Part shown: piece after piece, positions 1 through 15,189 of the stretch | Position numbering within the stretch: position 1 is the stretch's first letter | Layout: each line of letters starts with the position of its first letter | From: Rhodothermia bacterium | GTDB taxonomy: Bacteria; Bacteroidota; Rhodothermia; Rhodothermales; UBA2364 | Length of the DNA: 44,992 bases | Direction: 5' to 3' | Assembly (NCBI GenBank): GCA_017303715.1 | Contig: JAFLBZ010000034.1 | Location: 1 to 44,992, forward strand | Translations under genes and position numbers: made by a program | Notes under the pieces: generated by a model | What the model was told of the DNA's origin: nothing | Seen by the model: the letters and a program-made list of their open reading frames with translations, nothing else | Databases searched by the model: none

Positions 1-128
1 CGAGATGCCCAGTTCCCTGGCCGAACAGAGCATGCCTGACGACTCGACGCCACGCACCTTGGCGACCTTGATCGCGAATCCACCCGGCAATTCGGCACCG
101 GGGAGTGCGCACGGCACCTTGATGCCGC
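1..128 (-). other. PheT-like tRNA-binding-domain fragment fused in frame to glyA
   Basis: The last roughly 43 codons of the reverse frame include [17 protein letters not shown] and [15 protein letters not shown]. These match the conserved part of the N-terminal OB-fold tRNA-binding domain of bacterial phenylalanyl-tRNA synthetase beta chains. Codon choice is less GC-biased than in the glyA body (for example GAA TTG, GGT GGA, TCG TCA). The join lies near base 120 to 130, where SHMT sequence should be finishing. No SHMT known to me carries this domain, so a chimeric join is more likely than a true fusion protein. Only the fragment inside the window is visible. Confidence 0.75.
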
Positions 129-1356
129 TCACCTCCGCCGCGATCGCGTCGAGCCGCGCGTCTCCGCCCTGGGTCTCCGCGGCGATCTTCACCGCGCGGT
201 CGAACCAGTGCGCGACCCGTTCCATATGTGCTTCGGTAAGTCCGCGGCTGGTGATCGCGGGCGTTCCGAAGCGCACCCCGCTGGGATCGAAGGGCTTGCG
301 GGGGTCGTAGGGCACGGTGTTGTAGTTCAGCTCGACGCCCGCGCGGTCGAGGGCCTTCGCGGCGATCTTGCCCGAGACCCCCTTGTTCGTGAGGTCCACG
401 AGGAGGAGGTGGTTGTCGGTGCCGCCGCTCACGAGCGCGTAGCCCAGGCCCGCGAGGTGACACGCGAGGGTCTTCGCGTTCGCCACGACCTGCCGGGCGT
501 ACGCGCGAAACTCCTCCGTCGCGGCCTCGCGCGCGGCCACCGCGACGCCCGCGATGCTCGCCACGTGCGGCCCGCCCTGCAGGCCCGGGAACACCGCCTT
601 GTCGATCGCCGCGGCGTTCTTCGCGCCCGTGAGGATCATCCCCCCGCGCGGACCGCGAAAGGTCTTGTGCGTGGTGGACGTGATCACGTCGGCGTGGCCC
701 ACGGGGGAGGGGTGCGCGCCGCCCGCGATGAGCCCCGCGATGTGCGCGATGTCCGCGACCAGCGTGGCGCCCACCTCGCGGGCGATCTCGCCGAAGGCCG
801 CGAAGTCCCAGGTGCGCGGGTACGCCGTGCCGCCGCAGAAGATCAGCCGGGGCTTGTGCTCGTGCGCGAGCCTGCGCACCTCGTCGAGGTCGATGCGGTG
901 GTCGTCGCGCCGCACCGAGTAGGGGACCGACTTGAACCACGCGCCGGTCACCGACACGGGCCAGCCGTGGGTGAGGTGGCCGCCGTGCGGGAGCCCGAGG
1001 CCCATCACGGTGTCGCCGGGCTTCGCGAAGGCCATGTACACCGCGAGGTTCGCGGGGGAGCCGGAGTAGGGCTGCACGTTGGCGTGCTCGACGCCGAAGA
1101 GGGCCTTCACGCGCTCGCGGGCGAGCTCCTCGATGGGGTCGATGTTCTGCTGGCCCTCGTAGTAGCGCTTGCGGGGGTAGCCCTCGGCGTACTTGTTCGA
1201 GAGGGTGCTCCCGCAGGCTTCGAGCACCGCGCGGGACGCGTAGTTCTCGCTCGGGATCATCCGCAGCGAGTCGCGCTGACGGAGGTCCTCGGCGTGCACG
1301 AGGGCGGCGATCTCGGGGTCGCTCGCGGCGAGGTCGGGGTCACGAAGGGTGCTCAT
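1..1356 (-). CDS. glyA: Serine hydroxymethyltransferase, running into a PheT-like tail and off the window
   Basis: Reverse-strand frame from ATG at 1356, open through base 1 (452 codons, no stop). Residues 1 to about 409 are a PLP-dependent serine hydroxymethyltransferase, which interconverts serine and glycine and charges tetrahydrofolate with a one-carbon unit in the cytoplasm. Visible family marks are MIPSENYAS near residue 33, NKYAEGYP near 54, the PLP-lysine motif [13 protein letters not shown] with Lys231, and [10 protein letters not shown] near 363. A normal SHMT would end around residue 415 to 420. Here the frame continues instead into sequence typical of phenylalanyl-tRNA synthetase beta (separate entry). 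The gene is divergent from prfB across 87 bp. The SHMT identity is secure; the C-terminus as given is not. Confidence 0.93.
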
Positions 1357-1443
1357 GGCGGCGCATTCTTGGGGCGAGACCGCGGGGAGCACAAGCGCGC
1401 GTCGTTGACCGTGCGGCCGCGAGGGTGTATCCCCGCCGCCCCT

Positions 1444-2569
1444 ATGATCTCCGACTCTCGCAACGTGTTAGAGGAACTCGGTCGCCGGGCCGAGAACCTC
1501 GGGAGGCATCTTTGACCTCCCGAGGTTGAAGAAGCGCATCGAGGAGCTCGACGCCCAGAGCACCCGCCCCGGGTTCTGGGACGACCAGATCACATCGCAG
1601 AAGCTCCTGAAGGAGCGCGCCGACAAGGAGACGATGGTCAAGGCCGTCGAGGCCCTCCTGACCGACGTGAAAGACGCCTCGGAGCTCCTGGAGCTCGCGG
1701 CGCTGGAGAACGACGACGCCGTGGCGAAGGAGGTCGACGCCTCCCTCCCGGGCCTCGAGGTCCGGTGTCGCAAGCTGGAGCTCGACCAGATGCTCTCGGA
1801 GCCCGAGGACAAGGTCGACGCCATCCTTGAGGTGAACGCCGGCGCCGGCGGCGTCGACGCCATGGACTGGTGCGAGATGCTCCTGCGCATGTACACGCGC
1901 TGGTGCGAGGCGCGCGGGTTCACGGTCAAGCTCCAGGACGTGACCGAGGGCGAGGAGGCCGGGCTCAAGAGCGTGGCGATCCACATCTCCGGGCCCAACG
2001 CCTTCGGGTACCTCAAGGCCGAGAACGGGGTCCACCGCCTCGTGCGCATCTCGCCCTTCGACTCCAACGCCCGGCGGCAGACGGCCTTCGCCGCGGTGTG
2101 GGTGACCCCCGACCTCGACGAGGACATCGACGTCGAGGTGAAGGACGCCGACTGCGAGTGGGACACCTTCCGCTCCGGCGGCAAAGGGGGGCAGAACGTG
2201 AACAAGGTCGAGTCCGCGGTGCGCGTGGTGCACAAGCCCTCGGGCATCGTGGTGAAGTGCCAGAGCGAGCGCTCGCAGCTCGAGAACCGGCGCATCGCCC
2301 TCAAGACCCTGAAGAGCAAGCTCTACGCGATGGAGAAGCAGCGCCGCGAGGAGGCCTTCAAGGGCAAGTTCGAGGCGAACAAGACCGACATCGCGTTCGG
2401 CCACCAGATCCGCTCGTACGTGCTCGCGCCCTACCAGCTCGTGAAGGACCTTCGCACCGAGCACGAGACCGGCAACGTGAACGGCGTGCTCGACGGCGAC
2501 CTCGACCCCTTCATCGAGGCCTACCTCCTCGACTCCATGAAGAAGCGCGTCGCGACCGCGAAGGCGTGA
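1444..2569 (+). CDS. prfB: Peptide chain release factor 2, with programmed +1 frameshift
   Basis: RF2 recognises UGA and UAA in the ribosomal A site and triggers peptidyl-tRNA hydrolysis. The product is split over two frames. ATG at 1444 opens 23 codons that end at an in-frame TGA (1513-1515). A +1 shift at CTT TGA C gives Leu-Asp and continues to the stop at 2569, for about 374 residues, the normal RF2 length. The second frame contains the RF2 anticodon-like tripeptide in RISPFDS and the catalytic GGQ in [15 protein letters not shown] first-frame peptide such as [19 protein letters not shown] matches an RF2 N-terminus. Annotating only the downstream frame from 1526 would lose the true start. 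lysS follows 41 bp downstream on the same strand. Confidence 0.95.
1500..1518 (+). promoter_or_regulatory. RF2 programmed-frameshift signal
   Basis: A Shine-Dalgarno-like GGGAGG lies just upstream of the slippery CTT and the in-frame TGA followed by C. This is the same arrangement as the E. coli prfB site. When RF2 is scarce the ribosome pauses at TGA and slips +1 to complete RF2, so the gene autoregulates. The mechanism is established for the family; the elements are visible here. Confidence 0.92.
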
Positions 2570-2610
2570 CCCCGCTCTCCCCCTCTATTCTCCTCACGGA
2601 TGAGACGCCC

Positions 2611-4230
2611 ATGACCGAAGCACACCGGACCATCGAGGAGGTGCGCCGCGCGAAGGCGGAGTCCTGGCGCGCCCGAGGCTTTCTCCCCTTCGGGAACGAC
2701 CCCGGCGCCCTGGACCCGATCTCTTCGCTCCACGCCGCGCACAAGGACCACGACGCCCCGACCCTCGACCGCGACCACGCGGGCCTCACCTACCGCGTGG
2801 CCGGGCGGGTCATCGCCCTGCGCGACACGGGCAAGCTCGCGTTCATCAAGCTGCGCGACGGCAGCGGCGAGGTGCAGCTCTTCTGCTCCGCGCGGGACAT
2901 GGGCGACGGCTTCGGGGCGCTCAAGGACGTGGACATCGGCGACGTGGTGCTCGCCGAGGGCCGCCCGATGCGCACGCGCACCGGCGAGCTCTCGGTGATG
3001 GTGCGGGGCTTTCGCCCGCTCACCAAGGCCTACCTCCCGCTGCCGAGCGAGTGGTTCGGGCTGGGCGAGGTCGAGACGCGCTACCGCCAGCGGTACGTGG
3101 ACCTCATCGCGAACTACCCCGACGTGCAGAGCGTCTTTCGCGCGCGCTCGCTGATCACCCGCGCGCTGCGCGAGTGGTTCGACGCGCGGGACTTCATCGA
3201 GGTCGAGACCCCCACGCTGAGCACCATCCGCGGGGGCGCCACGGCGAAGCCCTTCTCCACGCACCACAACGCGCTGGACATGGACCTCTTCATGCGCGTG
3301 GCGCCCGAGCTCTACCTCAAGCGGCTCATCGTGGGCGGCCTGGAGCGGGTCTACGAGATCGGCCGGGTGTGGCGCAACGAGGGGATCTCCACGAGGCACA
3401 ACCCCGAGTTCACCATTCTCGAGTTCTATCAGGCCTACGCGACCTACCAGGTGTTGATGGATGAGACCGAGGACCTCATCCACCACGTGGACAAGCGGGT
3501 GCTCGAGCGCTTCCCGCAGTTCGCCGAGTCGCGCACGTTCACCTTCGAGCACCCGTGGAAGAGGGTCCGCATGCTCGACGCGATCACCGCGGCGCTGGTC
3601 AAGCGGCACGCCAGGCTCGCAGAGCTCTGGGACCAGGGGGCCTCGCTCATCCGCTGGGAGCACCTGCGGAGCGAGTGCGCCTCGGACCCGGTGGTCACCC
3701 GCGAGGAGCAGCAGTACCTCTACAAGTGCAGCACGCCGGGCGAGCTGATGTTCGCGCTCTACGAGGTCTTCGCGGAGCCGCACCTCACCGACGACTACCG
3801 CGCGGACGACGGGGTGCGCTCGGTGCCGGTGTTCATCACCGACCACCCCCTCGACACCTCCCCCCTCGCGCGCCGCAAGGACTCGGACAAGCAGGCGAAG
3901 GAGTACGGGGACTCGTTCCCGGTGGCGCTCACGGACCGCTTCGAGCTCTTCGTGGAGGGCCGCGAGCTCGCCAACGCGTTCTCCGAGCTCAACGACCCGG
4001 ACGACCAGGCCTCGCGCTTCAACGGCCAGCTCGCCAACCGCGCGAAGGGCGACGAAGAGGCCATGGACTACGACGCGGACTACATCCGCGCGCTCTCCTA
4101 CGGGATGCCCCCCACCGCGGGCTTCGGCCTCGGGGTCGACCGCCTGGTCATGCTGATCACCGGGCAGAAGAGCATCCGTGACGTGATCCTCTTTCCGCTG
4201 CTCCGGCCCGAGTCGGTGTCTGGGACGTAG
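2611..4230 (+). CDS. lysS: Lysyl-tRNA synthetase, class II
   Basis: Charges tRNA-Lys with lysine in the cytoplasm. The product is 539 residues from ATG at 2611, slightly longer than the usual 500 or so. An N-terminal OB-fold anticodon-binding domain (roughly residues 65-150, with [17 protein letters not shown]) is followed by the class II catalytic core: motif 1 around the FIEVETPTL segment, motif 2 [14 protein letters not shown], and motif 3 [12 protein letters not shown] near the C-terminus. The longer open frame upstream of 2611 overlaps prfB and is not coding. The gene sits 41 bp after prfB and 24 bp before the Lol permease, so one transcript for all is plausible. The sequence departs from E. 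coli LysRS in the region just before motif 3 but all catalytic motifs are present. Confidence 0.95.
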
Positions 4231-4254
4231 AACGCTCCGAGGAGGTGCCGCGCG

Positions 4255-5904
4255 ATGGGTCTCGACCTGCTGATCGTCTGGCTCATCGTCCGCAAGCTCA
4301 AGGGCCGCGCGCAGGTCGCGGTCTACCTCCTCTGGATGGCGCTGTGCCTCGCCCTCGCGGTCTTCGAGGTGCGGTACTCGTTCAAGCTCGTTCGGCCGGG
4401 GCTCGACCCCACGCCCCCCCTGGCGGTGATCCTCCTGCGCGTGGGGGCCATCGTCGCCGTGCTGGAGGCGTACTTCCTCTCCACGCTCGTGTGGATGCCC
4501 CGGCTCTTCGACCGCATGGAGCGCCTCCCCGCGGAGGTGCTCATCGCGGTCCGTCAGCTCCGCTCGCGCAAGAGCGGGTTCCTCACCGCGATCTCGTTCC
4601 TCGCGTTCCTGGGCGTTGGCCTCGGGTCCTTCGCGCTCTGCATGACCATCGCGATCATGGGGGGCTTCGGCAACGACCTGAAGACCAAGATCCTGGGCAA
4701 CAACGCCCACGTGGTGGTCGACCGCGAGCGGGGAGGATTCTCCGGCTGGCGTCCCCTGCTCGAACGCATCCGTCGGGTGCCCGAGGTCTCTGTCGCCACG
4801 CCCCTCGTGCAGGGGGAGGTGATGGTGACCTCGCAGACCAACCTCAGCGGGGTGATCCTTCGCGGGATCGATCCGTCTGCGGTGGGTAGCGTGTTGAATC
4901 TACGGAGGGACCTCATTCGCGGGAGGGTGGAGTACCTCGCGGACCCCTCGCGCCTGGACAACCTTCATCCCCTGGAGCGCCGCCCGGTGAGCGCCCGCGG
5001 CGAGGAGGACATCGTCGCCGGGGGAGGGCCCAGCCCCGCCCGACCGCCGTCCCCTGCTTCATTGGGCACACCCGTTCAGGGCAATGGCCTGGGCGCGCCG
5101 ACGGACGTGCTCCCTGGGATCATCGTGGGGCGCGAGCTCGCGTCGAACCTGCACCTCGCGGTGGGTGATGAGGTGCGGGTGGTCTCGCCCTACGGCTCGA
5201 TGGGCCCCCTCGGGCCCATCCCCAAGACGAAGCTCTTTCGCGTCGCCGGGATCTTCTATTCAGGGATGTACGAGTACGACACCAAGTACGCGTACATCAC
5301 CATCCCCGTGGCGCAGCGGTTCTTCAACCACCGCGACGACGCCATCACCGCCATCGAGGTCCGCCTCACGGACGTGGACCGCTCGGACGACGTGCTCGCC
5401 GCGATCCGCCCGATGGCCCGCGGGATGAACCTCCGCGTGCGCGACTGGAAGGAGCTCAACCAGAACCTCTTTCGCGCGCTCAAGCTGGAGAAGCTCATGA
5501 TCTTCCTGCTCCTCACGGTGGCGATCATCGTGGCGAGCTTCTCCATCGTGGCCACCCTCCTGCTCCTCGTGACCGAGAAGGGGAGGGAGATCGCCGTGCT
5601 CAAGGCCATGGGCGCGAGCGACGGGTTCATCACCCGGGTGTTCCTCGCCGTGGGCGGCCTCATCGGGGTGGTGGGCTCCTCGCTCGGGACCTCCGGCGCG
5701 CTGATCGTGGCGCTCGCCGCGAAGCGCGTCGGCATCCCCCTGGACCCCGAGGTGTATTACATCGAGCGCCTCCCGGTGATCATCGCCCCGTGGGACTTCG
5801 CGCTGGTGTTCGTCACCGCGGTGCTCATCTGCCTCGCGGCCGCGGCCTTCCCCGCGTGGCTCGCGGGACGTCTCCGCCCCGTCGAGGGGCTCCGCTTCGA
5901 TTGA
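4255..5904 (+). CDS. lolC: LolC/LolE-type lipoprotein-releasing ABC transporter permease
   Basis: Inner-membrane permease that, with LolD, releases mature lipoproteins to the periplasmic carrier. The product is 549 residues with a Shine-Dalgarno GAGGAGG at 4239-4245. Instead of one N-terminal helix it starts with an extra module of two or three hydrophobic segments (about residues 1-85). The canonical MacB/FtsX layout follows: a membrane segment near 105-130, a large periplasmic domain, and three C-terminal helices (about 415-435, 465-490, 510-535). The cytoplasmic coupling motif LKAMGASDGFI is present near residue 450. A Pro/Gly/Ala-rich stretch near residues 235-280 looks like a linker insertion. 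It lies 15 bp before lolD. LolC versus LolE cannot be decided; one permease may act as a homodimer. Confidence 0.85.
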   Translation: MGLDLLIVWLIVRKLKGRAQVAVYLLWMALCLALAVFEVRYSFKLVRPGLDPTPPLAVILLRVGAIVAVLEAYFLSTLVWMPRLFDRMERLPAEVLIAVRQLRSRKSGFLTAISFLAFLGVGLGSFALCMTIAIMGGFGNDLKTKILGNNAHVVVDRERGGFSGWRPLLERIRRVPEVSVATPLVQGEVMVTSQTNLSGVILRGIDPSAVGSVLNLRRDLIRGRVEYLADPSRLDNLHPLERRPVSARGEEDIVAGGGPSPARPPSPASLGTPVQGNGLGAPTDVLPGIIVGRELASNLHLAVGDEVRVVSPYGSMGPLGPIPKTKLFRVAGIFYSGMYEYDTKYAYITIPVAQRFFNHRDDAITAIEVRLTDVDRSDDVLAAIRPMARGMNLRVRDWKELNQNLFRALKLEKLMIFLLLTVAIIVASFSIVATLLLLVTEKGREIAVLKAMGASDGFITRVFLAVGGLIGVVGSSLGTSGALIVALAAKRVGIPLDPEVYYIERLPVIIAPWDFALVFVTAVLICLAAAAFPAWLAGRLRPVEGLRFD

Positions 5905-5919
5905 TGGGAGTCGCGCACG

Positions 5920-6618
5920 ATGTCTGAAAAGAGCCTGGTGGAGGTCCGCGGCGCGACGAAGTCGTATGACCACGAGGGCAAGCAGCTCGACGTGCTCAAG
6001 GGCATCGACCTCACCATCGAGGCCGGGGAGATGGTGTCCATCGTCGGCGCGAGCGGCGCGGGCAAGAGCACCCTCCTGCACCTCATCGGCACCCTCGACA
6101 TGCCCTCGCAGGGCGCGGTGCTCCTCGACGGCGTCGACGTGACGAAGATGAGCTCGTCGCGGGTGGCCGCGCTGCGCAACCGCACCATCGGGTTCGTGTT
6201 CCAGTTCCACCACCTCCTGCCCGAGTTCAGCGCGCTGGAGAACGTGATGATGCCCGGGATGATCTACGGAGAGATCCCGCGGGCGCAGCTCCAGGCGCGC
6301 GCGGCGAAGCTCCTCGACGAGGTCGGCCTCGGGCACCGCCTCTCGCACCGCCCGGGCGAGCTCTCGGGGGGAGAGCAGCAGCGCGTGGCCCTCGCGCGGG
6401 CCCTGGTGCTGGAGCCCAAGCTCCTCCTCGCCGACGAGCCCACGGGCAACCTCGACACGGCCAACAGCGCCGCGATCCACGCCCTCTTCCATGAGCTCAA
6501 CCGGGTCCACGGGACGACCATGGTGATCGTCACGCACAACCCCGAGCTCGCGAAGAGCATCCCCCGCGTGGTCACCATGGTTGACGGGCGCATCGAGCGT
6601 GACGAACATGTAGGGTGA
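5920..6618 (+). CDS. lolD: LolD-type lipoprotein-releasing ABC transporter ATPase
   Basis: ATP-hydrolysing subunit partnering the adjacent permease. The product is 232 residues, the normal length. Walker [11 protein letters not shown]-loop region [18 protein letters not shown], signature [15 protein letters not shown], Walker [13 protein letters not shown] and the switch histidine in VIVTHN are all intact. QFHHLLPEF is characteristic of the LolD branch of the MacB/FtsE/LolD family. The 15 bp spacing after the permease indicates an operon. Nothing odd within the gene; the block ends about 170 bp downstream. Confidence 0.95.
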
Positions 6619-6651
6619 CGCTCCGCCCTGGCTCTGTCAGAAAGGACCGCC

Positions 6652-6790
6652 GTGAGGTCCGCGCGACTGATCCCCCCCATCGCCCTCGCGCTGCTCGCGT
6701 GCGACGGCCCCGCACCGACGCTCGCGCGAGACCTCGCGTGCGCGGAGCGGGCGTCGGGGGTGTACTGCGAAGGAGCGGTCGCGATCCATA
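6652..6790 (+). pseudogene. Truncated lipoprotein gene cut by a sequence join
   Basis: Opens with GTG at 6652, 33 bp after lolD. It encodes a basic N-terminus, a hydrophobic stretch and a lipobox-like LLAC with Cys at residue 17. This is a lipoprotein signal peptide and fits the neighbouring lol genes. GC-rich coding continues to roughly codon 45 and then composition collapses. The remaining frame to 6849 (ending IMVFLLTKVCYLILHLL) is read out of AT-rich DNA that codes in another frame, so it is artefactual. Function of the intact gene is unknown. Confidence 0.6.
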
Positions 6791-6795: not shown

Positions 6796-7673
6796 ATTAT
6801 GGTTTTTCTGTTGACAAAAGTATGCTATCTAATTCTACATCTCCTTTAATTTTTTATTTACTTGAATATGGATATGGTTTTGAAAGATTTCCAACTAATT
6901 ATGATTTGCGTACTTTACTACGAGCATTTTTAGAGTTCGTTAATGATGACGAAATAATTACATATGATATTACAGAAGTTGTTGATGTTTATTATAATAC
7001 AATAGATGAGAAACAAATATATGATGAAATTGTAAATATTTACACATACGAATTTGAAATAGGTGATAAATTTATAATACTTACAGAAGGAACAACTGAT
7101 ATTTACATGCTTGAAAATTCATTAAAATTACTTTATCCTCATTTAGTCGAGTTTTATTCATTTATGGATTTTGGAAATTCAAATGCTTCTGGAAGTGCAA
7201 GTTCATTAGTAACAAGTATAAAATCATTTATAGGAGCAGGTTTTAAAAATAAAATTATTGCTATTTTTGACAATGATACAGCAGCAGAAGAAGCAAAACG
7301 TGGACTTGCAAAAACAAAAATACCAGATAATATTAAAATATTAAATTATCCAAACTTAAAATTTGCAGAAAATTATCCAACAATTGGTCCAACTGGTGAA
7401 AGTACTTTTAATGTTAATGGTTTAGCAGGAAGTATTGAAATTTATCTTGGTGAAGAAACGTTAACAAAAAATGGCAAATTTATACCTGTACATTGGAAGG
7501 GATACAACCAAAGTCTAAATAAATATCAAGGTGAAATATTAGAAAAAGAAGAAATTCAAAATAAATTTAAAATCAAAATTGAAAAATGTAGAGAGAATGC
7601 AAAATTGATAAACGAATATGATTGGTCAGGGATTAAAGAAATATTTAAAGTTATATTTAACGCTTTTAATTGA
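6792..7673 (+). CDS. HEPN/Toprim-associated protein, 5'-truncated
   Basis: The frame is open from 6792, just after a TAA at 6789 that lies at the join. Plausible coding (HDYGFSVDKS) precedes the first ATG at 6822, so the real start is lost. The C-terminal part is a Toprim-like nuclease domain: acidic motif EGTTD (Glu89 counted from the 6822 Met) and FDNDTAA with Asp150 and Asp152, followed by YPTIGPTGES, FNVNGLAGSIEIYLG and VHWKGYNQ, which are shared by the HEPN/Toprim family. Intact members are longer by very roughly 200 residues and carry an N-terminal HEPN/Toprim-associated domain. The family is predicted to be a nucleic-acid-cutting defence factor; its target is not known to me. It is the last gene of the first, partial cassette. 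Confidence 0.75.
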   Translation, partial: HDYGFSVDKSMLSNSTSPLIFYLLEYGYGFERFPTNYDLRTLLRAFLEFVNDDEIITYDITEVVDVYYNTIDEKQIYDEIVNIYTYEFEIGDKFIILTEGTTDIYMLENSLKLLYPHLVEFYSFMDFGNSNASGSASSLVTSIKSFIGAGFKNKIIAIFDNDTAAEEAKRGLAKTKIPDNIKILNYPNLKFAENYPTIGPTGESTFNVNGLAGSIEIYLGEETLTKNGKFIPVHWKGYNQSLNKYQGEILEKEEIQNKFKIKIEKCRENAKLINEYDWSGIKEIFKVIFNAFN

Positions 7674-7693
7674 TAAAATTAATAAAATAAAAT

Positions 7694-7832
7694 GCCCATA
7701 ACATATGTTAGTCGATAATTGCCGGCTTTCGTGCCAAGTTGATACTTTGGTGCTTTTAACGAACCGAAGTGCTAAATTGATACGAAAGTGCTGTAAATCC
7801 GGCAACTACGGCTACCATTTTTCGTTACCGCC
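7694..7832 (+). repeat. attC-like site A
   Basis: Left core GCCCATAAC (7694-7702) and right core GTTACCGCC (7824-7832) enclose an imperfect inverted repeat whose inner arms are ATTGCCGG and CCGGCAAC, about 139 bp in all. The inner segment differs from the other four sites and carries an extra inverted pair, CTTTCGT and ACGAAAG. The right core pairs with the left core of site B. The left core should pair with the lost start of the first cassette. Confidence 0.75.
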
Positions 7833-7877
7833 AATGCTAAGAAACCGTAAACACACAAAAATTCGTAACTTTGAAGA

Positions 7878-8909
7878 ATGGAATATTGGGAAGAAATAAA
7901 TAAAAAACTGAAACCTTGGATTGACACTGATTTGAACAAAACAGTGGTTGACCTTTTTGCGGGCTGCGGTGGACTTTCCCTTGGTTTTGAAGCTAATGGG
8001 TTTAAAACTATTGGCTATGAAATGGATGAACAAGCAACGAATACTTACAACAAAAATTTAATTGGAGAGTGCTTCAACCAAAAGCTGACAGTTGAAACAA
8101 TATATCCGAAAGCTGATATCGTGATTGGTGGCCCACCTTGCCAACCATTTAGTGTTGGTGGAAAACAACTTGGCTTAAAAGATTCAAGGGATGGATTTCC
8201 GATTTTTCTGTCAGCAATAAGACAGCTAGACCCAGAAGTGTTGCTTTTTGAAAATGTTCGTGGAATGCTTTACAAGAATAAGTGGTATTTAAAAGAAGTA
8301 ATTGAAGAACTTGAAAATTTAGGTTATTACATCAATTACGCCCTTTTAAATGCTGTAAACTATAAAGTTCCACAAAACAGAGAACGAGTTATTGTTATTG
8401 GCTCAAAACAGAAAATCAATCTTCCTAGAAAAAGTAACCGAATAGTAACCGCAGGTCAAGCCTTAGGAGAACTACCATTTGAGTTTAATGAAGATTCTAA
8501 ATTTTTTACTGAATCTATGGATAGATACGTTGCTAACTATGAAAAAGCATCAAAATGTATTAATCCAAGAGATTTATATTTAGACAGACCAGCAAGAACT
8601 TTGACTTGCAGGAATTTAGCAGGTGCAACGGGAGATATGCACCGAGTGAAATTAAAAGATGGTCGCAGACGTAGAATCACGGTTCGAGAAGCTGCAAGAC
8701 TTCAAAGTTTTCCTGATTGGTTCGAGTTTTCAGGAACGGAAACTCATCAATACAATCAAATTGGCAATGCTGTTGCCCCAAACTTCGCATATCATTTGGC
8801 TTTAAACATCAAAAGACATTTGATGGACGAATTAGAAAACCATTACACAATCACAGAAAACGAACAATTAAAATTATTTGAGAATGAAGCAGTATATCAG
8901 TCCCGATAA
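7878..8909 (+). CDS. DNA (cytosine-5) methyltransferase of a type II R-M system
   Basis: Transfers a methyl group from SAM to C5 of cytosine in a recognition site, protecting host DNA from the endonuclease encoded next. The product is 343 residues, typical for the class. Motifs are in canonical order: I VVDLFAGCGGLSLGFE near residue 24, IV GGPPCQPFS with nucleophile Cys88, VI ENVRG, VIII QNRERVIVIG, the variable target-recognition region around residues 185-260, IX RRRRITVREAARLQSFPD, X YNQIGNAVAP. ATG at 7878 is 40 bp inside the cassette after attC A. It overlaps the endonuclease start by 26 bp, so translation is probably coupled. AT-rich codon use matches the rest of the cassettes, not either flanking block. 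Confidence 0.95.
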   Translation: MEYWEEINKKLKPWIDTDLNKTVVDLFAGCGGLSLGFEANGFKTIGYEMDEQATNTYNKNLIGECFNQKLTVETIYPKADIVIGGPPCQPFSVGGKQLGLKDSRDGFPIFLSAIRQLDPEVLLFENVRGMLYKNKWYLKEVIEELENLGYYINYALLNAVNYKVPQNRERVIVIGSKQKINLPRKSNRIVTAGQALGELPFEFNEDSKFFTESMDRYVANYEKASKCINPRDLYLDRPARTLTCRNLAGATGDMHRVKLKDGRRRRITVREAARLQSFPDWFEFSGTETHQYNQIGNAVAPNFAYHLALNIKRHLMDELENHYTITENEQLKLFENEAVYQSR

Positions 8910-9900
8910 ATCAAAATCTTTTAGCGAAAAAACACCACAGGTTCAGGAATTGATAAATACTACGCTTTATATCCTTGACACTTTTGGGATTCCTTTAGAT
9001 GCCACGCCAAGAAGATTGGAAAGAATGGCAATTGCGTTTTTAGCAAGTGGCGACATTAAAAAAATTGCCGACTTCAAAAAAGCAAAAGATTTAAACAGCG
9101 GATACGCTCTCAAAACAAGGGATATTATCATTTATGTCAACAATCATTTTGCAGAAAATATAAGTTCAGGTTCTTATGATGACATTCGTAGAAAAGACCT
9201 AAAACTACTCACAGTAGCAGAAGTAGTTTTACAATCAAGCCCAAATTCAGCGACAAACGACTCAACTCGTGGTTATTCAATAAATCCAGCTTATGCTGAA
9301 CTTCTCAGGAATTTTGGCTCAAAGGATTGGGAGAAAATAGTCTCTGAAAAATTAAAGAATATTGAACCGTTAAGCAAAAAACTGAAAAGAGAGAGAGAAA
9401 TAGCAAAGGTTAATGTTACACTTCCTTCAGGTGGTGAACTGACCTTTTCGGCAGGAGGACATAACGACTTACAAAAAGCAATTATAGAAGACTTTTTACC
9501 AAGATACGGACACGGTGCGGAAGTGCTTTATGTAGGCGACACATCTGATAAATATCTTTATCTAGAAAAAGAGAAACTTGAAGAACTGAATTTTTTTGAG
9601 ATTTCACACGAAGAGTTGCCAGATGTAATTGCCTATTCAAAGAAAAAGAATTGGCTCTATTTGATTGAAGCCGTTCACTCTTCGGGTCCGATAAGCGAGC
9701 TTAGACTAATTCAACTTCAAAAACTTACAAAGGACTGCAAAGCTGATATTGTTTATGTGACAGCATTTTTGAACAGAGCTAAGTTTAGGCAATTTATGAC
9801 AGATATTGCTTGGGAGACAGAAGTATGGATAGCTGACAATTCAGACCATTTAGTGCATTTCAATGGAGACAAATTTCTCGGACCATATAAACCTGAATAA
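8884..9900 (+). CDS. BsuBI/PstI-family type II restriction endonuclease
   Basis: Predicted to cleave unmethylated DNA at the site protected by the upstream methyltransferase. The ATG at 8884 is preferred over a TTG two codons earlier; the product is about 338 residues. An N-terminal helical region (about 1-150, with DATPRRLERMAIAFLA) precedes the C-terminal catalytic domain. That domain contains ELPDVIAYS, the core NWLYLIEAVHSSGPIS, YVTAFLNR and the family-type ending IAWETEVWIADNSDHLVHFNG plus FLGPY. The acidic PD...E pattern fits a divergent PD-(D/E)xK nuclease. Known PstI and BsuBI are paired with adenine-N6 methyltransferases, whereas this one follows a cytosine-C5 enzyme. Recognition sequence is unknown. 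Confidence 0.88.
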   Translation: MKQYISPDKSKSFSEKTPQVQELINTTLYILDTFGIPLDATPRRLERMAIAFLASGDIKKIADFKKAKDLNSGYALKTRDIIIYVNNHFAENISSGSYDDIRRKDLKLLTVAEVVLQSSPNSATNDSTRGYSINPAYAELLRNFGSKDWEKIVSEKLKNIEPLSKKLKREREIAKVNVTLPSGGELTFSAGGHNDLQKAIIEDFLPRYGHGAEVLYVGDTSDKYLYLEKEKLEELNFFEISHEELPDVIAYSKKKNWLYLIEAVHSSGPISELRLIQLQKLTKDCKADIVYVTAFLNRAKFRQFMTDIAWETEVWIADNSDHLVHFNGDKFLGPYKPE

Positions 9901-9910
9901 AAAAGCACTA

Positions 9911-10044
9911 GGCGGTAACAGGCGTTTGGCTCAATGGCGGACGAAGTGGTTAATTGAACATTCTACCTCGCATCAACTTTTGAGGTGTATTGACAGTTTT
10001 GTGCTCCGAAATCCGCCACTTCGCCAAGCCGCAAAACGTTATGC
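9911..10044 (+). repeat. attC-like site B
   Basis: Left core GGCGGTAAC (9911-9919), right core GTTATGCC (10037-10044). Arms are TTTGGCTCAATGGCGG and CCGCCACTTCGCCAAGCC, imperfectly complementary, with an unpaired central stretch of about 65 nt. A 101-bp segment (9917-10017) differs by one base from site E. A 90-codon open frame across it (9863-10135) is not a gene. Confidence 0.85.
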
Positions 10045-10178
10045 CCAATGCTATGACGACCGTGCAACAGACGAACATTGTAACTTGACATTAAACTTTT
10101 GTGTAAAACTTGACGACCAAACAGGACAGATTTAGCCCTTAAAAATATTAACTTAGCGACATCAATTTCAAGACAAGA

Positions 10179-10856
10179 ATGAAGAAAAAATTAACGATAG
10201 AAACCTTAATAAAAGAAGCCCAAATTTTCTGTGCTGAACAATCCAAGTTTCAGCATAAAGAACTGTTTGGAGTAACTGACGGAAAAGCCGTTGGGACACT
10301 TATTGAACAGAAATTTCAAAAACACTTAAACGACAAATACGAAGTTACAATTGGTTCGTCTGCAAGTGGTATTGACTTGCCTTCTGACGACATTCAAACC
10401 GACATTAAAGTAACTTCAATAAAACAACCCCAATCATCTTGCCCATTCAAAGACGCAAAGCAAAAGGTATTCGGACTTGGATACAATCTTTTAGTTTTTG
10501 TTTACGACAAAACTGACGACCCAAAAACAAAAACAGCAAACCTAAACTTCGTTAGTTGTTCATTTGTTGCAAGAGAAAGAACAGCAGACTACACGACAAC
10601 TTTCCGCTTGCGGGAAATGGTAAAAGACAAAGCCAATGAAGCTGACATCATTGCTTACTTGCAAGATAAAAATATCCCAGCAGACGAAATAACACTAGCG
10701 AAATTAGCGGAGCAAATTTTAAAAACTCCACCTGAACAGGGTTACTTGACTATTTCTAATGCTTTACAATGGCGATTACAATATCAACGAATTGTAACTC
10801 TTACAGACGAAGTAAAAGGAATTACCAAGATTGTAAGCTATAACAAACCTCAATGA
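10179..10856 (+). CDS. Type II restriction endonuclease, PD-(D/E)xK type (predicted)
   Basis: A 225-residue protein starting at ATG 10179. The segment GTLIEQKFQKHL near residue 40 supplies a helix glutamate, and SGIDLPSDDIQTDIKVTS near residues 64-80 gives the Asp...Asp-x-Lys signature of a PD-(D/E)xK nuclease core. QPQSSCPFKDAKQKVFGLGYNLLVFVYD follows in shape, that is a conserved helix and strand after the active site. Its stop overlaps the start of an adenine methyltransferase (ATGA), the usual R-M arrangement, which is the main support for the function. I cannot assign it to a named prototype enzyme or predict the site. It heads the third cassette, about 140 bp after the recombination point. 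Confidence 0.75.
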   Translation: MKKKLTIETLIKEAQIFCAEQSKFQHKELFGVTDGKAVGTLIEQKFQKHLNDKYEVTIGSSASGIDLPSDDIQTDIKVTSIKQPQSSCPFKDAKQKVFGLGYNLLVFVYDKTDDPKTKTANLNFVSCSFVARERTADYTTTFRLREMVKDKANEADIIAYLQDKNIPADEITLAKLAEQILKTPPEQGYLTISNALQWRLQYQRIVTLTDEVKGITKIVSYNKPQ

Positions 10857-12625
10857 TGAAAGTATTTGAAGCAAATATTACTCATCAAGTTTCGGATTTC
10901 TTAAATGACAATCTGAAAAAGATTACCTCTTTCGAAAAGGCAAATCAAAAAATGTATGATGCCTTCGGCATTATACATTTTTTTGATAATGATGAAGAAT
11001 TGGAAACGCTTAAAGAAGTTCTTTCAATTACCAATAATGTTGTTGAAGAGCCTGATAGAGCAGAATATGGCGACTTCCAAACTAATTCTGATTTAGCAAA
11101 CAAGGTAACTTTATACTTAGCGACAAAAAAGATTTCGCCCGAAGTTGTTATTGAGCCAACCTGTGGAAAAGGAAATTTTATTATTGCCTCTCTACGCAAT
11201 TTCACGAATATTAAAAATGTATTCGGAGTTGAAATTTACAAACCTTACGTTTGGGAAACCAAATTCAGCATTGTTGATTTTTTCCTTTCTAATCCAAATT
11301 CATATAAGCCAGAAATTTCAATAGCTCATTGCAATGTTTTTGACTTCGATTTTAAAGCAATAGCTAAGAAACATTCAACAAATGATATTTTAGTCATTGG
11401 TAATCCACCTTGGGTAACTAATTCAAAATTGGGTAGTTTAAATTCAACGAACCTTCCGAAAAAAACGAATTTCAAAAATCATAGCGGTTTAGATGCAATG
11501 ACAGGTAAGGGCAATTTTGACATTGCTGAATTTATAACGCTAACTATGATTGAAACCTTTCAAAATATGAAAGGGAATTTATTGCTTTTGGTAAAAAATT
11601 CTGTTATCAAAAACATTGTCTTTGACCAAAATAAAAATCGTTACAAGATTTCTGATATTGAAAAACATTGTATTGACAGCAAAAAGGAGTTTAATGTATC
11701 AGTTGAAGCAGCTTTGTTTTATTGCAAACTAAATGCACAACCGACATTTGATTGCTTAGAATTTGATTTTTACAAGAACCAAAAATCTCAACTCAAATTC
11801 GGTTGGTTGAACGATAAATTTGTTTCAAATATTGACACTTACAGTCACACGAAAGAGATTGACGGAGAATGTCCATTTGTTTGGCGACAAGGTTTAAAAC
11901 ACGATTGTTCTACTGTAATGGAATTAGACAAGGTGAACGGACATTATGTAAACGGACTGAACGAAGAAGTGAAATTGGAAGACGGTTTAGTTTACGGTAT
12001 TCTCAAAAGTTCTGACCTTAAAAACACTGTGATTAATCAAACACGAAAGTTTACGATTGTTACGCAAAAGAAAGTTGGTCAAGAAACAAAATATATTAAA
12101 ACTGAATATCCAAAGACATATCAATACTTGACAGAACATCAAGCAAATTTTGATGCAAGAAAGTCAAGCATCTACAACAACAAACCTTTGTTTTCAATAT
12201 TTGGTATTGGTGACTATTCTTTCAAACCTTTCAAAGTTGCTATATCAGGACTTTACAAAACATTTCATTTTACACTTATACTGCCACAGGACAACAAGCC
12301 TGTAATGCTGGACGACACTTGTTATTTGATAGGTTTTGACAAAATAGAATTTGCAGTTTACGCATTAATTCTATTAAACTCAAACACGACAGTTCAATTC
12401 TTACAATCAGTTACTTTTCCAGACGCTAAAAGGACTTTTACAAAGGACGTTTTAATGAGAATTGACCTTTTAGAATTAGCAAAACAAATTGACAAGACCG
12501 ATTTGCAAACAGAACTTGATACTCTTAACGAAAAGTATAAATTCAGCTTGACACTTGACTTGTGGGACAGTTTCATTAACGAGATGACACCTGTAAACAA
12601 TGGACAAATGGCAATGTTTGCATAG
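10853..12625 (+). CDS. Adenine-specific DNA methyltransferase (NPPW type), R-M partner
   Basis: SAM-dependent methyltransferase expected to methylate adenine N6 in the site cut by the preceding endonuclease. The product is 590 residues. The SAM-binding motif I region is EPTCGKGNFIIASL near residue 100, an acidic motif II GVEIYKP follows, and catalytic NPPW sits at about residues 184-187. A long C-terminal part (about 300-590) is probably the target-recognition domain, with WRQGLKHDCSTVMEL and YSFKPFKVAISGLYK. This architecture is like Eco57I/TaqI-type gamma-class enzymes. The ATG at 10853 overlaps the upstream TGA by ATGA; a second ATG at 10856 is an alternative. The gene ends 15 bp before the left core of attC C. 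Confidence 0.88.
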   Translation: MMKVFEANITHQVSDFLNDNLKKITSFEKANQKMYDAFGIIHFFDNDEELETLKEVLSITNNVVEEPDRAEYGDFQTNSDLANKVTLYLATKKISPEVVIEPTCGKGNFIIASLRNFTNIKNVFGVEIYKPYVWETKFSIVDFFLSNPNSYKPEISIAHCNVFDFDFKAIAKKHSTNDILVIGNPPWVTNSKLGSLNSTNLPKKTNFKNHSGLDAMTGKGNFDIAEFITLTMIETFQNMKGNLLLLVKNSVIKNIVFDQNKNRYKISDIEKHCIDSKKEFNVSVEAALFYCKLNAQPTFDCLEFDFYKNQKSQLKFGWLNDKFVSNIDTYSHTKEIDGECPFVWRQGLKHDCSTVMELDKVNGHYVNGLNEEVKLEDGLVYGILKSSDLKNTVINQTRKFTIVTQKKVGQETKYIKTEYPKTYQYLTEHQANFDARKSSIYNNKPLFSIFGIGDYSFKPFKVAISGLYKTFHFTLILPQDNKPVMLDDTCYLIGFDKIEFAVYALILLNSNTTVQFLQSVTFPDAKRTFTKDVLMRIDLLELAKQIDKTDLQTELDTLNEKYKFSLTLDLWDSFINEMTPVNNGQMAMFA

Positions 12626-12640
12626 ACAGAAAAAAGCACT

Positions 12641-12777
12641 GGGCATAACAGCGGTTTGGCGTAATGGCGGGTGCAGTGCTTCGTATGACAGTTTTGTGGT
12701 AGGTTCAAGTTTAGTTCTTCGATTGAACATTTGTGCTAAAAATTCGCCACTACGTCAAGCTGCAAACCGTTACCTGC
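12641..12777 (+). repeat. attC-like site C
   Basis: Left core GGGCATAAC (12641-12649), right core GTTACCTGC (12769-12777). Arms are GGTTTGGCGTAATGGCGG and CGCCACTACGTCAAGC plus TGCAAACC. The left core with its flank GCACT pairs with 13 of 14 bases of the right core of site B. The central part differs from sites B and E but keeps a GACAGTTTTGTG element. Confidence 0.83.
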
Positions 12778-12819
12778 AAGCGTAGCGGACGACACAACAT
12801 AAACAAACAAGAGACATCT

Positions 12820-13752
12820 ATGAATAAACTTTTAATAATTCTCACTTTTTCACTTTTTGTAATTAATTGTAATGGACAGAAAGTATCTAATCTCAAAATC
12901 GAGAAGGTTTTTCTTGACAAATCTGACACAACAAAAAACTGTTATACAATAATATATCCACCAAAACTACCTTGGACAGGATATTTGTTCCTTATGCCAG
13001 GTTTTGGAGAAACAGCTGAAAGAGTTTTACAACAAACAGACTTACCCAAAAAGTTAGCCCTTAAGGGTATTTTGACAATTATTCCAACCTTACAAGATGG
13101 TGTTCTATCTTTAGGAGTGGATAGTCTAAGCCAACAAACTTTTAAAAGAATATTGAAAGATGTAACCACTAAACACAAACTTACTGACCAAAGATTTTTT
13201 GTTGGCGGATATTCCATTGGTGGCAGTTGTGCTATAAAATATGCTGAAAATTCGACCGTCAAACCTACGGCAGTTTTTGCAATTGACCCACCGCTCGACT
13301 TTGAAAGGTTTTATAATTCCGCAAAAAGAGATATTAGACTTTCAAAAAGCAATGAAGCTAGTGAAGAGAGTGTATATATGATAGAGAGACTTGAAAAAGA
13401 AACAGGCGGAAGTCCAACAACAAACCTTTCTGAATATTACAAACTTTCACCTTATTCATTTACTGACACAACTCAAACAGCAATTAAGAAAATAGTCACA
13501 ATACCTTTAAGAATTTACACAGAACCCGACATAAATTGGTGGTTAAAAGAACGTGGAGAAGACTTTACAAGTATGAATGCTACTGAATGTTCGGCAATGA
13601 TTAACGAATTGAAGAGGCTTGGAAATCAAAAAGCTCAATTAATAACGACACAGAATAAAGGTTACAGAAAGCCTGACAATAGCAGACATCCGCATTCGTG
13701 GAGTATTGTGGACAATGACGAATTAATAAGATGGATTTTAGAACAGAAATAA
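12820..13752 (+). CDS. Lipoprotein alpha/beta hydrolase, cassette-borne
   Basis: About 310 residues from ATG at 12820; the 29 codons upstream in the same frame lie in attC C and are not coding. A short N-terminal hydrophobic stretch ends in VINC, a lipobox-like Cys at residue 17, suggesting anchoring in the outer or inner membrane. The hydrolase fold shows YLFLMPGFGE (oxyanion-loop region), nucleophile elbow GGYSIGGSCAIKYA with the Ser of GYSIGG, an Asp in AIDPPLDF and a likely catalytic His in RHPHSWSIVD near the C-terminus. The substrate is unknown; the pattern resembles serine esterase or peptidase-like proteins. It is the only gene of its cassette. Defence, scavenging or surface roles are all possible. 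Confidence 0.75.
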   Translation: MNKLLIILTFSLFVINCNGQKVSNLKIEKVFLDKSDTTKNCYTIIYPPKLPWTGYLFLMPGFGETAERVLQQTDLPKKLALKGILTIIPTLQDGVLSLGVDSLSQQTFKRILKDVTTKHKLTDQRFFVGGYSIGGSCAIKYAENSTVKPTAVFAIDPPLDFERFYNSAKRDIRLSKSNEASEESVYMIERLEKETGGSPTTNLSEYYKLSPYSFTDTTQTAIKKIVTIPLRIYTEPDINWWLKERGEDFTSMNATECSAMINELKRLGNQKAQLITTQNKGYRKPDNSRHPHSWSIVDNDELIRWILEQK

Positions 13753-13758
13753 CGCCAG

Positions 13759-13893
13759 TAGGTAACACGGGTTTTGCGTCAGGCGGGGTGACGTGCAAAT
13801 TTGGAGCTTTGTGCTTCTATTCAAGTTCAGTGCTGGTTGATAGTTTTGTACTCCGAAACCCGCCCGAACGCAAAGCCCGAAACCGTTATGCGG
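13759..13893 (+). repeat. attC-like site D
   Basis: Left core TAGGTAAC (13759-13766), right core GTTATGCGG (13885-13893). Arms are GGGTTTTGCGTCAGGCGG and CCGCCCGAACGCAAAGCCC, the most complementary of the five sites. The left core matches the right core of site C except for one position. The centre contains GATAGTTTTGTACTCCGAAA, close to the corresponding element in sites B and E. Confidence 0.85.
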
Positions 13894-13915
13894 CAGCTTA
13901 AAAGACGACAATACT

Positions 13916-14731
13916 TTGACAATTAGAATTTACATATTGACACTTTTGACCTTGACATCTTTCAATTTCAAGGTTTTCGGGACTGCTCAAATTCCAGACA
14001 GACTAATTTATAATGGAGAAACAGTTTCGATATTTTCAAACCCGTTGGAGCAACTTCCAAACATTGATAATTTAAGACCTAAATTGTTTGGCGACAAAAA
14101 AGGGTGTAACTCGACAGCTTGTTGGAGAGAATACCAGGGTAAATGGGAAATTATAGACTCTGAACTTTATCTAATTGGAATTTATAGCTGTTGCTTTTGT
14201 GAAGACAAAATTGAAGCGAACTTAGAACAATTATTTCCAGACAAATTCGAGAATGGAAAAGTAAAAGCCGATTGGGTAACAGCAAATATTTTATCGCCAC
14301 AAGGAAAACAACTTTACTATGTTCATATGGGTTATGAATCGCTTTACGAAAAAGAAGTTGTTTATGAAATCGAAAACGGACAACTAAAAGGAACAACAAC
14401 TTTCGACAATACAAAATCAAGGAAATCAATATACAGCCAAGATACCACATTGTTAACATTTATCTATTCAAACATAAATTGGGAAACCCTACCAAAGAAG
14501 GACAAGACCGTTAAAGTTTTTATTCAATTTTCAGCAAACGAACAAGGAAAAATTGACAGTTTGAAAGTAATGAGAGGTTTTGATGAAACTTATGACAATG
14601 AAGCATTAAGAGTTGTGAAATGTATTCCTGAATGGGATGTATTTTACAGACATGGCCAACACGAAAGACGAGTTTGGAATTTGCCAATTGTGTTTAGTGA
14701 AGAAAACAGGAAAAAGTATCAAAAGAACTGA
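13916..14731 (+). CDS. Exported protein with TonB C-terminal-like domain
   Basis: 271 residues, starting at TTG 13916 because no in-frame ATG lies between attC D and the signal peptide. Residues 1-23 form a signal sequence. The middle has a Cys-rich patch (GCNSTACW and YSCCFCED) of unknown role. Residues about 190-262 look like a TonB C-terminal (energy-transducer) domain: KTVKVFIQFSANEQGKIDS, LKVMRGFDETYDNEALRVV and WNLPIVF. Such domains occur in many Bacteroidota proteins that are not classical TonB; the absence of a proline-rich linker and of a clear membrane anchor beyond the signal argues against a working energy transducer. Sole gene of the fifth cassette. Confidence 0.7.
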   Translation: MTIRIYILTLLTLTSFNFKVFGTAQIPDRLIYNGETVSIFSNPLEQLPNIDNLRPKLFGDKKGCNSTACWREYQGKWEIIDSELYLIGIYSCCFCEDKIEANLEQLFPDKFENGKVKADWVTANILSPQGKQLYYVHMGYESLYEKEVVYEIENGQLKGTTTFDNTKSRKSIYSQDTTLLTFIYSNINWETLPKKDKTVKVFIQFSANEQGKIDSLKVMRGFDETYDNEALRVVKCIPEWDVFYRHGQHERRVWNLPIVFSEENRKKYQKN

Positions 14732-14755
14732 AAATGAAAGATGTAAAAGAAAGCC

Positions 14756-14893
14756 GACCGCATAACAGGCGTTTGTCTCAATGGCGGACGAAGTGGTTAA
14801 TTGAACATTCTACCTCGCATCAACTTTTGAGGTGTATTGACAGTTTTGTGCTCCGAAATCCGCCCGTACGCAAAGCCCGAAACCGTTAGGCAC
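14756..14893 (+). repeat. attC-like site E
   Basis: Left core CCGCATAAC (14758-14766), right core GTTAGGCAC (14885-14893); GTTAGGC is the only right core here that fits the strict GTTRRRY consensus. The left arm and centre (14764-14864) copy site B with one mismatch, while the right arm ACGCAAAGCCCGAAACCGTTA copies site D in sequence pattern. The site is therefore a mosaic of two others. No following attC with a matching GTGCCTAAC end exists. Confidence 0.83.
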
Positions 14894-14907
14894 AATAATA
14901 AAAAGAC

Positions 14908-15078
14908 ATGAAGTGGATTAAGAATATTGAAGAATTTACAGAGCACATTTTTAGCAATAAAGAACGAGCTGCTAAAAGACACCTGAATAATTTTGAAGTG
15001 GAAAAACCCCGAGAGGTATTTGACAGAGCATGCCAATTGATTTCAGACGAACTAGCAAAAATTGGATTTCACCTCTAA
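14908..15078 (+). CDS. Short ORF of the last cassette, probably truncated
   Basis: A 56-residue frame from ATG 14908 (MKWIKNIEEFTEHIFSNKER at the start) to TAA at 15076. It is charged, predicted helical and has no recognisable domain. The end (ISDELAKIGFHL) reads like the N-terminal helix of a larger protein, and the cassette lacks its closing attC, so the gene was probably cut where the composition changes. The start lies 15 bp after the right core of attC E, as in the other cassettes. Function unknown. Confidence 0.5.
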   Translation: MKWIKNIEEFTEHIFSNKERAAKRHLNNFEVEKPREVFDRACQLISDELAKIGFHL

Positions 15079-15189
15079 TATGGAGGTAAAATGGAACGCT
15101 TTTTGTTTTGCTTAATACAAAGTTTGTTTTTGCGCCATACAAAGACGTTTTTTTGAAATAACGATTGAACCATAAATCCAAGGACTGTG

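Follow-up and report, generated by a model that had tools for sequence, protein, structure and literature searches.

Canonical integrons, both the mobile class 1 elements and the chromosomal ones, combine an IntI recombinase, an attI site and codirectional arrays of gene cassettes exchanged at G^TT between complementary cores. The additional domain of IntI, I2, docks extrahelical bases and blocks second-strand exchange; it is considered necessary for cassette capture, since its removal kills IntI1, and has been called exclusive to integrases (PMC7790495). Because this IntI-specific additional domain is what published searches use to pick out integrases (PMC2426708, PMC9668308), an integrase without I2 would escape them. 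Reviews count Bacteroidota among the phyla with integrons (PMC8618304), and the IntegronFinder 2 survey found only one complete integron in Bacteroidetes proper, in Salinibacter, the phylum being reported as almost devoid of integrons (PMC9024848). Described here is a cassette array of a Rhodothermia bacterium (Bacteroidota; assembly GCA_017303715.1, 4.35 Mb in 62 contigs, rated 100% complete). It lies on contig C34 (JAFLBZ010000034.1), the whole 45 kb of which are called the window below. The favoured reading, to which we assign a probability of about 0.86, is that this array is one of about a dozen belonging to a multi-platform integron in a Bacteroidota genome.

A preliminary description of the window had placed five sites of about 135 bp between positions 7694 and 14893 and taken them for an integron-type cassette array. 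All five stand where it had put them, and the four consecutive core pairs that it quoted are exact, three agreeing in 6/6 variable positions and one in 5/6; the interpretation is borne out by covariation, further sites and neighbour-core complementarity. That the stretch is a cassette array can be regarded as virtually certain. As read from the sequence, the cassettes each begin with TTRNNN and end in a site of ~135 bp, predicted to fold, whose left core complements the beginning of that same cassette. Neighbouring sites were compared in 24 array stretches drawn from many genomes: the right core of a site and the left core of the next agree in 6/6 positions in 58 of 84 neighbouring pairs and in 5/6 in 8/84, against 1.9% and 5.1% of random pairings; the earlier claim that the core matches exceed chance is thereby upheld. 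The left and right cores within one site match at about chance level. Most of the non-matching neighbours probably skip a weak, undetected site. As cassettes exchanged at G^TT must show such complementarity, the pattern fits gene cassettes.

A search of the window against Rfam gave no match for the sites. A covariance model, R1, was built from 17 sites of the source genus, the five of the window included. Double changes occur in 15 of the 20 stem pairs of this alignment, a result equalled in 0/500 shuffles, and the covariation is lost when one stem arm is slid by 1-3 columns. R1, whose E-values are rough, finds 30 sites in the source genome (the five of the window and 25 more, some of which had served to build it), as well as hundreds elsewhere in the Bacteroidota. 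A covariance-model search, which the preliminary description had suggested as a check, recovers all five window sites, but their scores of 93-120 bits are high by construction, the five having helped to build R1. Around the canonical IntI genes that other families of the same order carry (loci L071-L079) the model detects no sites, so the attC type is distinct from the canonical type of that order. One candidate from a crude scan, L063:705-842, was not a real attC and was dropped.

The matching integrase is encoded elsewhere in the same genome, the window itself being free of one, as had been noted earlier. Searching the source genome with TIGR02249 yielded no member over the cut-off; the best match was an I2-less tyrosine recombinase of 368 amino acids (aa), the one full-length enzyme found in that search, at C24:11601-12707. 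C-terminal pieces of the recombinase form a further series; most lie a few kb in from a contig start, beside AT-rich arrays. When eight loci are aligned at their 3' ends they share ..GGATATTGCCGCAATATTGCGGCAATACAGATG followed by TT; from TTRNNN onwards each of the eight continues into a different cassette. Seven of the eight lie 3' of the integrase gene (int) or of an int remnant; two have a form shorter by one palindrome arm, and one has int deleted. By BLAST, 11 copies of the attI-like site occur in the source genome, mostly 3' of intact or decayed int. The shared element is a predicted attI site about 40 nucleotides (nt) past the stop codon of the integrase gene. Two other genomes of the genus have the attI core almost directly behind the 3' end of int, where it is again an exact complement to the first attC. 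By these alignments, attI-type insertion points lie just 3' of the tyrosine recombinase gene and are followed by different cassettes at the same G^TT.

The 11 attI copies are spread over contigs C2, C4, C6, C9, C13, C19, C24, C32 and C55, set against one intact integrase, which may act in trans on many scattered platforms. The int fragments of three loci begin at the same internal position of int. Tandem repeats of ~50 bp (CAGGGGCGTCAGCCCTGCCATCTTCATAGAA...) occur upstream of int or its remnants, at L016 ~12890-13100, L017 ~7353-7710, L020 ~3069-3437 and L023 ~3844-4373. Inverted copies of GGATATTGCCGCAA flank the integrase gene (L016 ~11580-11593 and ~12742-12755), one in attI and one just before the start codon, and are possibly an autoregulatory binding site.

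Several lines of evidence indicate that the recombinases of these arrays lack the I2 domain. The distance from the first catalytic arginine motif to HxLRH is 91 residues in this family (92-96 in a few members); XerC/XerD of Bacteroidota have 96-98, and canonical IntI from the same order have 133. Alignment to the Vibrio enzyme VchIntIA (2a3v) breaks exactly at the I2 position. A predicted structure of the Algoriphagus litoralis integrase (mean pLDDT 85) has its best fold match in 2a3v, with a short loop and no helix where I2 would stand. Two of these integrases score 190-199 bits against TIGR02249, whose curated cut-off is 265. In 16 genomes with I2-less int, canonical IntI over the cut-off was found in 0/16, and three control genomes gave 417-444 bits; one of the controls, G052, holds both kinds of integrase. 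The source integrase reaches 158 and 156 bits against the XerC and XerD families (cut-offs 335 and 330). In a maximum-likelihood tree rooted on XerC/XerD, the sample of which did not extend to XerA and other families, canonical IntI form one clade (100/99), the I2-less enzymes fall outside it as its sister (95/82), and XerC and XerD form a clade separate from the I2-less enzymes. The I2-less enzyme is very probably the integrase of these arrays.

The attC sites themselves also depart from the canonical form. The preliminary description had expected extrahelical bases at all five sites; they are largely absent, most sites of the type having a continuous L-box stem. The L-box carries no bulge in 70 of 111 sites and one in a further 30, whereas each stem of a canonical attC from the same order has 2-3 single-base bulges. 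The spacers are asymmetric, usually one of 1 nt and the other of 5 nt. So few extrahelical bases make sense if the matching integrase lacks the I2 domain that binds them, and the missing domain and the missing bulges form a coherent pair. In the mechanism that we propose, the intact recombinase encoded on contig C24 would act in trans on all platforms of the source genome. A cassette circle would enter single-stranded or with its bottom strand folded, the recombinase would grip two R/L half-sites and cut at G^TT, and the cassette would be joined to double-stranded attI at the 3' end of int, the junction being resolved by replication. Polarity would probably be read from the 1-versus-5-nt spacer asymmetry instead of from I2 docking. 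A folded single strand is, on balance, the likelier recombination substrate.

The same attC type was traced beyond the source genome. When genome contigs were scanned with the integrase alignment, 464 relatives were confirmed. The 80 loci retained from among them come almost entirely from Bacteroidota (Saprospirales, Cytophagales, Flavobacteriales, Bacteroidales, Chitinophagales), the others from a few metagenome-assembled genomes of other phyla. In these 80 loci R1 (E up to 1) gave 62 attC hits, all downstream of the integrase, 60/62 on the int strand and none in up to 6 kb upstream of int. Among isolates, A. litoralis has 7 sites, Algoriphagus sp. AK58 4 and A. aquimarinus DSM 23399 3. When the core immediately 3' of int was compared with the first attC, it proved perfectly complementary (9/9) to the left core of that site in 25 of 28 loci. 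The preliminary description had proposed a search of related Bacteroidota for this attC type next to an integrase gene, and the pairing is indeed found, with the difference that the integrase is I2-less and not canonical IntI. In a survey of 394 genomes of the phylum, with a strict cut-off for int (E 1e-60), the attC type was present in 185 (47%), the integrase in 119 and both in 101, an odds ratio of 12.8 with a p of 2e-24 that is optimistic, the survey genomes being related and not independent. Arrays of ~20 sites over 30 kb occur in the single-contig genome G124 and in the draft G411. Cassettes are shared between families: a 2.2-kb stretch of one cassette is 77% identical to a cassette of the G124 array, which is of the kind called type A. 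Type A, to which most loci belong, has N-terminally extended integrases reading toward the array.

Two observations on cargo and carriers stand apart. A multi-kb block with a CusA/CzcA-like metal efflux gene is shared at 82-88% identity by arrays of two genomes of the source genus (L065:9288-17075 and L068:1-7720), an unusually long cassette content. Full-length I2-less integrases are borne on plasmids of Chryseobacterium sp. SNU WT5 (L209) and Pontibacter kalidii (L210), followed by codirectional genes, so the system is also mobile; the L209 plasmid has three R1 sites.

Several points weigh against the integron reading. All the evidence comes from sequence, and no recombination has been observed. 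Neither an integrase nor attI lies within the window, and the array's left flank is foreign, so its own platform is unseen. A minority of loci, type B, have integrases of ~250-320 aa whose genes point away from the array, the arrangement of class 1 integrons. Type B enzymes are likewise I2-less where the motif is measurable, and the two types have a cassette in common (257 bp, 95% identity between the source genome and G425, ending at the attC core). In the survey, 84 of the 185 attC-positive genomes have no int above E 1e-60, and these may hold fragments, type B relatives or relics; 18 int genomes have no attC hit. In some members of the family (e.g. L083, L084, L089, L091) no cassette core can be clearly made out behind int.

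The rival explanations differ in how much of this they leave standing. The nearest to our own keeps the same integron and supposes that the I2-less integrase recombines double-stranded attC as Xer does at dif, the hairpin being a by-product of inverted half-sites. We think this unlikely, though it is the most serious of the alternatives: the absence of I2, the few extrahelical bases and the position of the I2-less enzymes next to IntI and Xer in the tree would suit it, but compensatory changes run along ~20 bp, more than two half-sites need, the strict orientation of the sites and the 1-versus-5-nt asymmetry suggest strand polarity, and single-strand cassette uptake fits the transformation data from Riemerella discussed below. 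A canonical IntI elsewhere, lost or missing from the assembly, could also have built the array and left the I2-less recombinase a bystander. The presence of canonical IntI in other families of the same order and the 62 contigs of the source assembly give this some room; it is nonetheless disfavoured and very improbable, given that the 3' end of I2-less int is where attI meets a cassette in many unrelated genomes, that several isolates are among the 16 genomes in which canonical IntI was sought in vain, and that canonical loci carry a different, bulged attC that R1 does not detect.

Two further explanations would dispense with the integron altogether or with its place in this genome. The repeats might be terminal structures of another mobile element (transposon ends, repetitive extragenic palindromes or hairpins of the IS200/605 type), a case that the preliminary description had named as refuting its own. 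Core complementarity, however, links the two ends of each gene unit, not the two cores of one site, the sites follow codirectional unrelated genes, and neither target-site duplications nor a transposase-linked terminus was seen; no transposase is present in the window array. In favour of this explanation, the source genome holds decayed copies of the element around int, and short inverted repeats stand on either side of int. We consider this the least credible of the alternatives, and transposon terminal repeats in particular were rejected on the core complementarity of each cassette. Hardly more plausible is a mis-joining of the whole array, and not just of its left end, into the bin: the left flank is clearly foreign, but the same attC type lies next to host DNA on many other source contigs and recurs in genomes of the same genus and in a single-contig genome. 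The multi-platform integron served by an I2-less recombinase thus remains the reading that we favour.

Compared with described systems, the one reported here shares with canonical integrons the G^TT cassettes with complementary cores, the attI, the codirectional arrays and an IntI-related recombinase. It differs in the lack of I2, in the N-terminal extension of type A, in attC sites mostly without extrahelical bases in the L stem, and in an attI usually 3' of int, with int reading toward the array; 'inverted' intI genes are known elsewhere (PMC8352920). CALIN elements (clusters of attC sites lacking integron integrases), as reported by IntegronFinder, are likewise attC arrays without a recognisable IntI, unlike the present system in that the latter has a dedicated integrase. 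XerCD/dif recombination and CTX-phi integration also proceed without I2, on hairpins or inverted half-sites without extrahelical bases (compare PMC4792948), but here there is an attI/attC system of its own with tandem cassettes, and XerC/XerD fall in a separate clade. The best NCBIfam score of the source integrase, 196 bits, is to the archaeal XerA-type family NF040815 (XerA_Arch, 'site-specific tyrosine recombinase/integron integrase'), below the cut-off of 220; the Algoriphagus enzyme reaches 217.5. To our knowledge, no cassette system is known for XerA. In Riemerella anatipestifer, a 2026 study reported that aph(3')-IVb with an attC-like tail of ~140 bp was inserted by transformation, independently of homology, and named no integrase (PMC13148043). 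As in the system described here, a gene with an attC-like tail enters a member of the Bacteroidota without homology, and by this analogy the insertion would fit an I2-less integron.

The layout of the window is given in Table 1. By GC content it falls into three parts: 1-6790 (68%), 6797-15080 (30-38%) and the remainder (~47%). The Bacteroidota-like character of the host genome, proposed in the preliminary description, holds, and the host probably belongs to an order near Salinibacter; a protein with a type IX secretion system (T9SS) sorting tail is encoded in the ~47% part. The first segment is foreign, or chimeric and mis-joined, judging by its composition and by the fact that the host has a lysS of its own on contig C6, 44-62% identical to the lysS-like gene of the window. 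It meets the array exactly at a cassette start (TTATGG 6797). The earlier account had missed this abutment. A further cassette, with a Toprim-like gene, precedes site 1. The array has thus kept its right edge and lost its left edge at the junction. Complete type II restriction-modification systems make up 2/5 of the window cassettes, the rest encoding the Toprim-like protein, whose N-terminal HEPN/Toprim match (Pfam PF18871) is weak and below cut-off, and two unknown proteins; the cargo, as annotated, is mainly restriction-modification cassettes. A match of the cassette-2 methylase to a Shiga-toxin family (21 bits, cut-off 650) was set aside as chance. Outside the array, a 1221-aa open reading frame at 26334-29999 (-) is a SEDS-PBP fusion, a single chain that joins an FtsW/RodA domain to a penicillin-binding transpeptidase domain.

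Table 1. Features of the cassette array and its left flank in the window.
Feature	Position	Strand	Evidence
Non-array segment: lysS-like gene, FtsX/MacB permease, LolD-like ABC ATPase	1..6790		GC 0.68-0.72 vs host 0.47
Cassette 1 (5' flank lost at junction): 283-aa protein	6797..7824	+	core TTATGG pairs with CCATAA of site 1
attC site 1 (GCCCATAAC ... GTTACCGCC)	7694..7832	+	R1 92.7 bits; among sites building R1
Cassette 2: C5-cytosine methylase (7878-8909) and BsuBI/PstI-type restriction endonuclease (8887-9900)	7825..10038	+	cores GTTACCGCC/GGCGGTAAC; Pfam, PADLOC
attC site 2 (GGCGGTAAC ... GTTATGCCC)	9911..10046	+	R1 115.8 bits
Cassette 3: type II restriction endonuclease (10179-10856) and methyltransferase (10853-12625)	10039..12769	+	NF052465 339 bits, over cut-off; PADLOC MTase_II
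attC site 3 (GGGCATAAC ... GTTACCTGC)	12641..12777	+	R1 102.8 bits
Cassette 4: 310-aa protein, no family match	12770..13885	+	family searches
attC site 4 (GTAGGTAAC ... GTTATGCGG)	13758..13893	+	R1 120.4 bits
Cassette 5: 271-aa protein, no family match	13886..14885	+	family searches
attC site 5 (CCGCATAAC ... GTTAGGCAC); 90% identical to site 2	14758..14893	+	R1 103.7 bits; repeat search
Last cassette, truncated, without own attC; array end	14886..15080	+	sequence and GC step

A possible link to clinical resistance genes emerges from the plasmid p80-1-2-tetX3 of Acinetobacter indicus (NZ_CP041297.1; L207:4968-7238, also L208 and L214). Directly before tet(X3) lies a truncated 'xerD'-like gene (221 aa, 50% identical to the source integrase) that belongs to the I2-less family. 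Between the two genes there is an attI-like inverted repeat with a core (..GGATATATACGCCATTTGGCGTATAGCCACTTG followed by TTATGTGCC), and after tet(X3) comes the left half of an attC of the R1 type (27.6 bits, E 1.9e-4); the core match is imperfect. From this arrangement it seems that tet(X3) was captured as a cassette and that an insertion sequence element moved it afterwards.

A large integron family of Bacteroidota whose recombinase has no I2 is apparently undescribed; no account of I2-less integrons was found in a literature search that left most subscription journals and all preprints outside. The system would work like an integron yet falls below the IntI family cut-off, and possibly predates I2. 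With slightly less than even odds, we suggest that an ancient line of integrons, separated from the rest before IntI acquired I2, survives in Bacteroidota as an intermediate between Xer and integrons that moves folded, bulge-free attC hairpins without I2 and that was missed because searches use I2. The I2-less family may show how integrons arose, and it offers natural material for testing the evolution of single-strand recombination. It would also point to a large hidden pool of cassettes, among them restriction-modification and metal efflux genes, that crosses families and classes and that, judging from the truncated member that directly precedes tet(X3) on plasmids of Acinetobacter, may already be a source of clinical resistance.

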